Assembly: GCA_004124475.1 (NCBI GenBank)
Contig: SCKK01000007.1
Location: 1-64,000 of the forward strand
Length of the DNA stretch: 64,000 nucleotides
Origin: Fidelibacterota bacterium
Lineage (GTDB): Bacteria > Fidelibacterota > Marinisomatia > Marinisomatales > SCKK01
Direction of reading: 5' to 3'
A model generated the notes under the pieces. It was not told where the DNA came from. It ran no database searches and worked only from the letters and a program-made list of their open reading frames with translations. A program made the position numbers and the translations under genes. Below, in pieces: positions 42,984-62,109 of the stretch (positions are counted from its first letter, which is position 1; each line of letters begins with the position of its first letter).

Positions 42984-43116
42984 AGGTTTTTTCACTTTTT
43001 ATTCTTTCCTAAATTCGCAGCGCTTTTTAATTTGGAAACACAAAAATATGAAGAATAATAGGGATGTTACTTTTTTCTTTGTGTCTTTGTAATCAATAAA
43101 AAATTCCGGCGTAGCT

Positions 43117-43138
43117 TCCCGACACTTCGTATACGGGA
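43117..43138. repeat. Palindrome in the D-loop position of the tRNA remnant
   Basis: TCCCGACACTTCGTATACGGGA, imperfect 22-bp inverted repeat, a longer member of the dispersed TCCCGA family. Confidence 0.7.
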
Positions 43139-43167
43139 CAGGCAAATGGTAGAGTGAGTGGCTGTTA

Positions 43168-43183
43168 TCCCGATGTTTCGGGA
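43168..43183. repeat. Palindrome in the anticodon-arm position of the tRNA remnant
   Basis: TCCCGATGTTTCGGGA, a 16-bp inverted repeat. It interrupts the remnant just after the CTGTTA of the anticodon loop. Confidence 0.75.
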
Positions 43184-43240
43184 CGGGGGTTCGAGTATTG
43201 GCGAGGATGTTCAATAAAAAAATTATACATGAATAAATAT

Positions 43241-43313
43241 TCCGGCGTAGCTCAGTTGGTAGAGCGAGTGGCTGTTAACCACCAGGCCGGGGGTTCGAGT
43301 CCCTCCGCCGGAG
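43241..43313 (+). tRNA. tRNA-Asn (GTT)
   Basis: A 73-base cloverleaf: acceptor TCCGGCG (43241-43247) pairs with CGCCGGA (43306-43312), discriminator G 43313. The D-arm is GCTC...GAGC. The anticodon loop CTGTTAA has anticodon GTT at 43274-43276, and the T-arm is GGGGG-TTCGAGT-CCCTC. CCA is not encoded. One A-C mismatch occurs at the base of the anticodon stem, so folding should be checked, but the gene looks functional. Confidence 0.96.
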
Positions 43314-43835
43314 CGGGAAATTACCTTGCAAAAGCGGGGTTTTTCATTTCCTGAATAGGAGGGACGAGAAGTTTATCCCGATGAGGGAAGTGAATCGGGG
43401 AGTCCCTCCGCCGGAGCGGGAAATTACCTTGCAAAAGCGGGGTTTTTCATTTCCTGAATAGGAGGGACGAGAAGTTTATCCCGATGAGGGAAGTGAATCG
43501 GGGAGTCCCTCCGCCGGAGCGGGAAATTACCTTGCAAAAGCGGGGTTTTTCATTTCCTGAATAGGAGGGACGAGAAGTTTATCCCGATGAGGGAAGTGAA
43601 TCGGGGAGTCCCTCCGCCGGAGCGGGAAATTACCTTGCAAAAGCGGGGTTTTTCATTTCCTGAATAGGAGGGACGAGAAGTTTATCCCGATGAGGGAAGT
43701 GAATCGGGGAGTCCCTCCGCCGGAGCGGGAAATTACCTTGCAAAAGCGGATTTTTTCATTTCCTGATTAGGAGGGACGAGAAGTCACAGCGCAACAAAGA
43801 TCCCGATAAACGCAGTGAATCGGGAAGTCCCTGCT
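43298..43835 (+). repeat. 103-bp tandem array containing the tRNA 3' end
   Basis: Units begin at 43314, 43417, 43520 and 43623, exactly 103 bases apart, with a diverged fifth from 43726. Each unit holds GCGGGAAATTACCTTGC, AAAGCGGGGTTTTTC, GGAGGGACGAGAAG and a copy of the tRNA-Asn 3' end AGTCCCTCCGCCGGAG. Identity of the first four is essentially complete, so the duplication is recent. A single diverged copy without the tRNA tail occurs at 45521-45605. Confidence 0.93.
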
Positions 43836-43969
43836 TGTCCGGTTGGCGGGCCTCCTCCGGAGATTTTAAGGGAGATATGAGAGAAGTTGGAAAAGGATAA
43901 GGAAGAAGGAGAACCGCAGGAAGGTGAATGACGGAAAACAAAGCACACCCAGATAGGAGCATAATCAAT
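43836..43969. other. Gap between the tandem array and the nucleotide-binding-like gene
   Basis: About 130 bases with a purine-rich stretch (GGAAAAGGATAAGGAAGAAGG) and GGAGC at 43956 as ribosome site. No gene was recognised. Confidence 0.4.
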
Positions 43970-45096
43970 ATGTCCACAGCCTTTATTATAATGTCAATTG
44001 GTAATTCGGATTTAGACAAAATGTGTGAGAAAGTAATTATTCCATCACTAGTTAATGTGGATTTAAGAAGGAAAACTGCATTCGTATTGATAAGCACAAT
44101 GAGGGTGGACTATTAAAAAGTGAAATAATTAAGCATATAAGTGATGCTGATATAATAATTGCAGATTTAACTAATGAAAGACCCAATTGTTATCTAGAAG
44201 TTGGTTTTGCTATGGGCATTGATAAGTTTAAAAACTTGATTTTAATGGCTCGAGAGGATCATAATCCCGATAGTCCCAACTATCAAAAGGGTGGACCCAA
44301 AATACATTTTGATCTAATAGGATATGATATTCTATTTTGGGAACAAAATAATTTTAATTACGCTATCGAAGAACTTGTTAAAAGGTTAGATAGAAGATTG
44401 CAGCTATTGTCAGCTAATCAAATTAAAGAAAATAGCTGGGATCGAGATTGGATAGATTCTAATCGTAAGAAAGGGCTGACAATAATTTCAAGTGTAACAC
44501 AGCAAAATTATCTTGAAATTTTATTCAGTCTTGATGATAAAGACATTAATGCCGATCATCATAAATTAAAAGAAGCTGCAATAAGAGCACAAATTCCTAT
44601 TACTGGATTCCCAATTGGAATGGTTAGTAACCCACAACCACGAAGAAGAGGAATTGTGGATAGTGCAAAGATTAGTGGTTGGGTAAATTTTTGGGCTTTA
44701 AGATTTGATGGAGACTATTATTTAATTGAGAGCTTTTCTATTCCAGATGAAATAAGAATAAATGCTATTCATATGGGACTTCGAATTGATAGAATAATTG
44801 CAGCATTAAAATTTTGTGAACGTTTATATGGGAATTTGGGAATTAATCATGGATCTGTTAATGTAAGTGTTACACATAAAGGACTAAAAGGAAAATTACT
44901 CTACGGTGTTCAAATTTCGACTAGTAATTCTACTGAAGATGAAGTTAAAACAGAGCGTAAAATTACGTTTGAGAGAATTCGTTCAGATCTTCCTGGAATA
45001 GTTATGGAGTTTGGTAATGATTTATTAGTGCTTTTTGGGTTTTTTAGTCAAAAAACCTGGGAATATGAAAGTTTAGTTAGAGATTTTCGGAGTTAA
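43970..45096 (+). pseudogene. Nucleoside deoxyribosyltransferase/TIR-like sensor gene with one frameshift
   Basis: Read across a shift near 44056, the N-terminal ~110 residues run STAFIIMSIGNSDLDKMCEKVIIPSL, then GFKKENCIRIDKHNEGGLLKSEIIKHISDADIIIADLTN, and RPNCYLEVGFAMG. This is the fold of nucleoside 2-deoxyribosyltransferase-like or TIR-like domains used in many defence systems. The C-terminal ~250 residues (KISGWVNFWALRFDGDYYLIESF..., FCERLYGNLGINHGSVNVSVTH) are unrecognised and may be a sensor. One inserted base at 44056 gives a single 375-residue frame. ATG 43970 with GGAGC upstream is the best start. The gene is probably inactive unless the shift is an error. Confidence 0.55.
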
Positions 45097-45444: not shown

Positions 45445-45899
45445 GGTTCCTGTAATACGGTAAAACGGGATTGTGAACGTGATCCACCCTCGGACGGTGT
45501 GTGTTTTGTGACCTTGTAGGGAGCGAGAAATTACCCTGCGAAAGCGGGGTTTTTCATTACCTGATCAGGAGGGACGAGAAGTCGCACCGGAACGAAGATC
45601 CCGATAGCGAAAAGTATGGTGGATTCTAATCAAAAGGTGGTAATATAAAACTATAACAATTTAAGAGTAAAATACACCTCGCACCGTGCAAAACTCACAC
45701 TTTTCATTAGAACGATTAATGTAAATTCTTTAACCTATAACGTGTGCTACAAATACGGTTGTGGTATCTGTATTTCTCGCAGTGACCTGTTATTCCCATT
45801 GCTCACACCTCAGCGGAATATTTCTTGCAAAGAAAGAAACAAAGAAAGAAATTAACTTGCATATTGATGTAAGAATATGTTAAAGGATTTAAAGGAAAG
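45445..45899. other. Intergenic region with repeat copy
   Basis: About 455 bases. 45521-45605 is a diverged copy of the 103-bp unit. ACCCTGC-GAAA-GCGGGGT at 45533-45550, followed by TTTTC, is a hairpin terminator with GAAA loop. An AAAGAAAG-type direct repeat lies near 45832-45851. Nothing else was identified. Confidence 0.55.
45521..45605. repeat. Diverged single copy of the 103-bp unit
   Basis: GAGCGAGAAATTACCCTGCG and AAAGCGGGGTTTTTCATTACC then GGAGGGACGAGAAGTCGC parallel the units at 43314 onward. Its right half is closest to the diverged last unit (43726-43811). It ends the segment that contains the sensor-like and HTH genes. Confidence 0.85.
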
Positions 45900-57985: not shown

Positions 57986-57996
57986 TGTTTGAGAAT

Positions 57997-58160
57997 ATCA
58001 GTTTTGTAGGTTTCCTGACTTATGCCTCATAGGATAACTTCCGCCTTCTCATCCCGATTATTTTCGGAACAATGGCCTTCACATTGGGGAAGGAAGCTCC
58101 TAAGCAATTACAGTAGCGGGGCTGTACCCGATTTTCACGGGTTTCTCTCTCAAAACTGAT
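57997..58160 (-). promoter_or_regulatory. Cobalamin riboswitch
   Basis: On the minus strand ATCAGTTTTG (58151-58160) pairs with CAAAACTGAT (57997-58006) as the closing stem. Inside lie AGCCCCGCTACTGT (58110-58123), AGGCGGAAG and AAGTCAGGAAACCTAC (the B12 box, 58006-58021), in the order of the AdoCbl class. It precedes the TonB receptor gene by about 57 bases. The regulated gene should be turned down when cobalamin is plentiful. Confidence 0.93.
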
Positions 58161-58272
58161 CTGTCAATAGGCAGGTAAACTTATCTAATTATCGACGTTG
58201 ATGTCAAGGCTTTTACCTTGATTTGCTGGAAGGGTCAGAATAAATTTCCACAGCTTTACTTGAACCAAATTT

Positions 58273-62075: not shown

Positions 62076-62109
62076 TCCCGACCCCCCCGACAAGTCGGGG
62101 TCGGGGGGA
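62076..62109. repeat. CCCCGACAAGTCGGGG-type palindrome before rluB
   Basis: CCCCCCGACAAGTCGGGGTC with surrounding CCCGACC/GGTCGGGG sequence, a 34-base inverted repeat. A second member is at 24401-24423, and the perfect member is at 11244. It may act as a terminator after scpB. Confidence 0.7.

Follow-up and report, generated by a model that had tools for sequence, protein, structure and literature searches.

Palindromes interrupting partial tRNA copies in genomes of Neomarinimicrobiota

Results and discussion

An intact tRNA-Asn and a broken partial copy

The window, i.e. the whole stretch of DNA analysed (64,000 nucleotides), belongs to the draft genome of a marine Neomarinimicrobiota bacterium (G000; 3.15 Mb, 77 contigs). 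In sequence, its neighbours are Candidatus Neomarinimicrobiota. As listed in Table 1, an intact tRNA-Asn is preceded by a remnant of the same tRNA, which spans positions 43105-43196 and starts exactly 136 bp 5' of the intact gene. A sequence-only reading of the window had described three tRNA-Asn blocks lying there in order with one base difference, and this was borne out by gapped alignment (nt 1-12, 17-37, and 48-60), the remnant ending at nt 60 with the 3' end of the tRNA missing. The alignment score was 58.5. Among 1000 shuffles the highest score was 30, and among 2618 other stretches of the window, taken from both strands, it was 24.5. With a likeness far beyond chance, the remnant proves to be a partial copy of the adjoining tRNA-Asn.

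Two palindromes separate the blocks, one in the D-loop and one in the 3' anticodon arm, as that reading had placed them. Its wording that the first stands in place of the D-loop overstates the loss a little, since TGGTA, at the 3' side of the loop, is kept: the D-arm insert, TCCCGACACTTCGTATACGGGA followed by CAGGCAAA, stands for nt 13-16, and the D-loop has lost CAGT only. CAGGC is found 3' of D-arm palindromes beside further tRNAs as well, not just tRNA-Asn. In the anticodon arm, the loss begins in the loop and extends down the 3' side. The sequence CAATAAAAAAATT occurs twice, ahead of the remnant and again in the remainder of the 136-bp block ahead of the intact tRNA-Asn, and the second occurrence fits a partial tandem duplication.

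Table 1 Features at and around the tRNA-Asn locus of the window.
Feature	Position	Strand	Basis or remark
Remnant block 1, tRNA-Asn nt 1-12 (TCCGGCGTAGCT)	43105..43116	+	identical to 43241-43252
Palindrome 1 (TCCCGACACTTCGTATACGGGA), 22-bp imperfect, in D-loop	43117..43138	.	fits TCCCGA...CGGGA family pattern
Tail of D-arm insert (CAGGCAAA)	43139..43146	+	sequence
Remnant block 2, tRNA-Asn nt 17-37	43147..43167	+	one change, C to T at 43155
Palindrome 2 (TCCCGATGTTTCGGGA), in 3' anticodon arm	43168..43183	.	replaces nt 38-47 (ACCACCAGGC)
Remnant block 3, tRNA-Asn nt 48-60 (CGGGGGTTCGAGT)	43184..43196	+	identical to intact tRNA
Remainder of 136-bp block, missing in G001	43197..43240	+	alignment with G001
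Intact tRNA-Asn(GTT)	43241..43314	+	ARAGORN; Rfam 68 bits
103-bp tandem array, 4.7 near-identical copies, starting inside tRNA-Asn	43297..43784	+	
Diverged terminal array copy, TCCCGAT...ATCGGGA then AGTCCCT	43801..43832	+	
Distant copy of 103-bp array unit, 87% identical	45520..45606	+	

Each unit of the tandem array contains an inverted repeat, ATCCCGAT...ATCGGGG, with the inverted pair GGAGGGAC/GTCCCTCC, and then the last 18 bp of tRNA-Asn (GAGTCCCTCCGCCGGAGC). A related unit lies 3' of tRNA-Asn in another family (G034, L064). Beside the array, two ORFs (window 43928-45096) resemble one frameshifted gene, to which no family was assigned. The sequence 3' of tRNA-Asn differs in a genome of the same genus (G001), hence this flank of the window may be an insertion hotspot.

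The same locus in relatives

G001 is about 95% identical to G000 and syntenic with it over much of the window. When the locus was compared with related strains, as the sequence-only reading had proposed, G001 was found to carry one clean tRNA-Asn straight after the shared flank, with neither the 136 bp nor the palindromes; the 136 bp were therefore gained in G000 or lost in G001. Recombination between palindrome copies outside the tRNA, which that reading had named as the contrary scenario, was not seen in G001, whose locus has no palindromes to recombine.

The order of a transporter gene and then tRNA-Asn was also followed into other families. Most genomes have a spacer of 55-80 bp there and no remnant, and interrupted tRNA-Asn remnants are present in L089, L092, L097, L101, L150 (two), and L157. 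The last of these, upstream of tRNA-Asn in G022, has the same D-plus-anticodon architecture as the window, TCCGGAGTAG[TCCCGACTGGTCGGGA]CGGGTGGCTGTTA[TCCCGCTACGGCGGGA]TGGGGTTTCGAGTC; its palindromes and its D-arm breakpoints are different ones. G010, of the same genus as G022, lacks the double-palindrome remnant at its tRNA-Asn locus (L156). Presence and absence within two genera, together with the different palindromes, argue for recurrence and not for one ancient event.

Remnants of other tRNAs

The tRNAs of two draft genomes of one genus were surveyed (42 in G000 and 43 in G001). To the question whether other tRNA genes carry such elements, the answer was yes: partial copies of many tRNAs are interrupted, in the anticodon and T arms as well as in the D arm. 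In each genome, some dozen or more tRNAs have pieces of themselves within 400 bp, the 5' pieces lying upstream of the tRNA and the 3' pieces mostly downstream. A strict scan of both genomes gave 30 sites where a copy of the neighbouring tRNA is broken by a palindrome; the same scan with reversed or reverse-complemented tRNAs gave 0 sites. A 31st row of the scan was the intact anticodon stem of a tRNA-Gly and was discarded as a false match.

In 5' remnants the break is in the D arm and in 3' remnants in the T loop, and a few sites are in the anticodon arm. Most left breakpoints are at nt 10-12 in the D arm, nt 37 in the anticodon arm, and nt 53-58 or equivalent in the T arm. A typical D-arm site reads GTAGCT[palindrome]GTAGAGC, and a typical T-arm site reads GGTT(C)[palindrome] with a loss of 0 to 8 bp from the T-loop region. 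In the extreme cases, about ten 43-bp units lie upstream of tRNA-Lys(ctt) and four of about 74 bp lie downstream of tRNA-Lys(ttt). At two orthologous sites the palindromes are nested: tRNA-Gln(ctg) has CCCGCCTGACCGGAATCAGTCGGGCAGG in G000 and CCCGC[TCCCGATATAATCGGGA]TCGGGCAGG in G001, and at tRNA-Val(gac) G001 has TCCCGACATGGCATCGTCGGGA where G000 has a palindrome within a palindrome.

Among the 66 flanks of 33 orthologous tRNA pairs, remnants were present in both genomes at 9, in G000 only at 4, and in G001 only at 4. Thus 8 of the 17 remnant-bearing flanks have a remnant in one genome only, which indicates fast turnover at 95% identity.

In several D-arm remnants (L309, L310, L314, L315, and L092), the palindrome is often followed by CAGGCANNTTCGCT or a similar run, which sometimes extends to complement the 5' part of the tRNA (GTAGC), closing a larger hairpin. 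GIY-YIG genes adjoin tRNAs in related phyla; here, small GIY-YIG genes were observed directly 3' of tRNA-Gly(gcc) (L183/L215), tRNA-Ser (L192/L223), tRNA-Leu (L249), and the tRNA-Asn of G034 (L064), and a 3' remnant of the same tRNA often follows the tRNA-adjacent GIY-YIG gene.

Spread across the phylum

Of 245 genomes of the phylum, 24 contain a D-arm pattern of GTAGYT followed by a TCCCGA palindrome and otherwise free of tRNA sequence; the control gave 2 matches. Ten loci from ten genomes were opened. Each had an intact tRNA on the same strand shortly downstream (for Val, Arg, Lys, Gly, or Ala), at a distance of 34-125 bp, the Lys(ctt) array excepted. The T-arm pattern was less clean, with 3 of 10 opened loci beside tRNAs, so that this pattern alone is no evidence of a tRNA copy. 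Near-identical copies of palindrome 1 of the window follow GTAGTT in G129, where three copies of TCCCGACACTCCGTATACGGGA are spaced at 127 bp (G129:C112:1885-2166).

Palindrome families across the genome

About 200 TCCCGA...CGGGA palindromes were counted in each of G000 and G001, against 2-3 for reversed-pattern controls (201 forward and 193 reverse matches versus 3 and 2). This count covers chiefly TCCCGA-N-TCGGGA and leaves out the CCTGCCTGCC..., CCCGCCTGAC...GTCGGGCAGG, and TCCGTCA... types. In the stretch compared between the two genomes, the palindromes lie largely in spacers, and many such spacers differ between both genomes.

The clearest filled-versus-empty case outside tRNAs is a pair of Y1_Tnp genes of G000. 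These paralogues are closely similar outside two sites: one copy has a 27-bp palindromic insertion and, in place of CAACGTG, the sequence TCCCGACTCGTCGGGA (7 bp to a 16-bp palindrome), both in frame. The replacement lies at 1798-1813 of L083 and the insertion earlier in the same gene, and both are absent from the paralogue L075. In L071, a palindrome is likewise seen inside a Y1 (RAYT-like) transposase gene (1566-1581).

The immediate flanks of dispersed palindromes, those outside tRNA remnants (n=73), have no strongly conserved tag: GTAG was found at 3 of 146 ends and CGTC at 0 of 146. D-arm sites do follow GTAG, but the tRNA itself supplies it there. No target-site duplication was found; the tRNA sites are pure insertions or have lost up to about 15 bp.

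Are hairpin loops the target?

The elements had been suggested from the sequence to target hairpin loops or single-stranded DNA. For the tRNA copies this is supported: of 22 independent events, left after arrays and orthologues had been collapsed by hand, 17 have the midpoint of the interruption inside one of the three loops (D, anticodon, or T), where 9.8 would be expected (p 0.00125). The other 5 midpoints, including that of the anticodon-arm palindrome of the window, lie outside the loop proper. Most pure insertions are in the T-loop, directly after TTC. This preference for the T-loop and the D arm suggests a DNA hairpin as the target, either a cruciform or single-stranded DNA during replication, and the nested palindromes at orthologous sites also point toward loop preference.

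The dispersed copies do not share the preference. The 73 palindromes lie in the loops of larger hairpins no more often than by chance; their flanks form stems of 3.22 bp on average versus 3.00 (sd 0.17), which is not significant, and a flanking stem of at least 6 bp was seen at 4 of 73 against 1.8 expected. At the in-frame insertions in the transposase genes, a hairpin target is not evident either. Targeting of hairpin loops or single-stranded DNA in general is therefore unproven. An insertion system that recognises hairpin loops, with palindromic units entering the loops of other hairpins and tRNA genes as the commonest hosts, is an improbable reading; it might act via a Y1 enzyme for which the tRNA D arm (GTAG and then a hairpin) mimics a REP. 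If such a system existed, every insertion would enlarge a hairpin and thereby make a new target.

Origin of the interrupted copies

We consider it probable, though by no means firmly so, that tRNAs recurrently undergo partial duplication and that genome-wide palindromes insert into the hairpin loops of the expendable copies. If a partial tandem duplication ended within the tRNA gene on one side and in the flanking DNA on the other, it would leave an intact tRNA and an expendable partial copy. Short GC-rich palindromes of the kind found across the genome would then enter the D-loop, anticodon arm, or T-loop of this copy, either inserting or replacing up to about 15 bp. The polarity of the remnants needs no special mechanism, since a duplication that ends within a tRNA will place 5' parts on its upstream side or 3' parts on its downstream side. 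The tandem origin is suggested by the structure of the copies; the palindromes would move as units, arrive after the duplication, and find in the loops a recognised target. The enzyme responsible may be of the HUH/Y1 (RAYT-like) kind or another single-strand-acting candidate. Y1_Tnp genes gave 7 matches in G000 and 5 in G001, and no match in G034 despite its 104 palindromes. Across 15 families, palindrome density correlates with the density of Y1 genes (rho 0.65), with that of GIY-YIG genes (rho 0.76), and with genome size (rho 0.71); Y1 or GIY-YIG abundance was rejected as the cause, because genome size correlates too and there are clear exceptions.

The same structures might arise without any mobile element if replication forks stalled at tRNA hairpins and switched template, a single event both duplicating part of the tRNA and copying in a palindrome located elsewhere, with the loops as stall points. 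Such events are favoured by the palindrome-bearing partial copies with their breaks at hairpin loops, by the arrays (units of 43, 74, and 103 bp), and by the nested palindromes. However, the inserted arms are those of a few families present genome-wide and not of local sequence, and protein genes without evident hairpins have received insertions too; we regard this explanation as possible but rather improbable.

It is unlikely that the remnants are footprints of homing elements. On that view, a GIY-YIG nuclease would cleave the tRNA gene and the element would restore its end, leaving behind a copy whose palindromes mark or protect the former cut site. The window locus has no GIY-YIG gene, either beside the tRNA-Asn or inside the inserted block, and G022 bears its double-palindrome remnant with only a uvrC-sized GIY-YIG gene. 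What speaks for a link is position: with the uvrC-sized gene left out, 5 of 9 GIY-YIG genes in G000 and 7 of 9 in G001 lie just downstream of a same-strand tRNA. Several of them separate the intact tRNA from a 3' remnant with a palindrome, and in G034 a GIY-YIG gene stands between the tRNA-Asn and a palindrome-bearing remnant. Genome size is nearly as good a correlate of palindrome density per family as is GIY-YIG density, the correlation that would favour homing, and the same palindromes occur far from tRNAs and within other genes.

A functional tRNA-like RNA, acting as leader or decoy with its hairpins under selection, is very unlikely, even though remnants recur at one locus in several families and the inserted palindromes could lengthen tRNA arms: the nearest relatives of G000 and of G022 lack the remnant, most loci have only the short spacer, and the window remnant, folded as DNA, is no more stable than shuffles (z -0.74). 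An assembly artefact, conceivable for a draft in 77 contigs with a tandem array at the locus, is hardly credible, as the arrangement recurs in many independent assemblies from different families.

Relation to known systems

Integrative or homing elements duplicate tRNA 3' ends, and tRNA-linked tandem arrays exist, e.g. E. coli tyrT/rtT. The present loci resemble these in having an intact tRNA with partial copies outside it and, in the 103-bp array, a unit that holds the tRNA 3' end; they differ in that the copies are broken by palindromes at loops and that 5' copies occur besides the 3' ones.

REP/REPIN sequences with RAYT (Y1 tyrosine) transposases are alike in being short palindromes, with about 200 copies per genome here, mostly intergenic where looked at, and in the accompanying Y1_Tnp genes, G034 excepted. 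High copy number and enrichment over chance, both expected of REPs, were found for the TCCCGA palindromes. RAYTs act on single-stranded hairpins according to the accessible parts of PMC3733652, in which replacement of tRNA loops does not appear as a REP behaviour. In contrast to REPs, the dispersed copies lack the GTAG tag, on which ground membership of the classical REPs was rejected. Palindromes do occur near or inside some Y1 loci, where no regular flanking layout of the REPtron kind was seen. The CGTC-tagged palindromes, including the Rickettsia palindromic elements, can lie inside genes and have no known dedicated transposase (PMC3733652, same parts). Palindromes here are also found within genes, but they are 16-30 bp long and have no CGTC tag, and those parts describe no link of the CGTC palindromes to tRNA loops.

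Mitochondrial GC clusters, double-hairpin elements, and repetitive hairpin-forming elements are mobile, GC-rich hairpins whose stems are conserved and whose loops vary, and they spread in intergenic DNA and rRNA genes (PMC4478555, PMC2800124; accessible parts). They differ from the present palindromes in belonging to organelle genomes, and a tie to tRNA copies is not described in the accessible parts of either source; for the yeast GC clusters, these give a putative target-site duplication, of a kind not found here. In searches of the open-access literature, none of the titles and abstracts listed described palindromes in tRNA-copy loops. The recurrence of the arrangement beside many tRNA genes of the relatives suggests a recurrent and seemingly undescribed process that places hairpin-forming DNA in the hairpin loops of expendable tRNA copies.

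The way in which short palindromes spread in bacteria has long been an open question. Since the tRNA sequence is known to the base, the broken copies are before-and-after records with exact insertion points and lost bases, and their recurrence across the phylum makes hairpin loops as the target, the acting enzyme, and the rate testable.

Other features of the window

A cobalamin riboswitch (Rfam RF00174, 74 bits) was found at window positions 57988-58194 on the minus strand. At 62077-62108 there is a nested GC palindrome, CCCCCCGACAAGTCGGGGTCGGGGGG, which is also nested in the palindrome 3' of tRNA-Val(gac) (L187).
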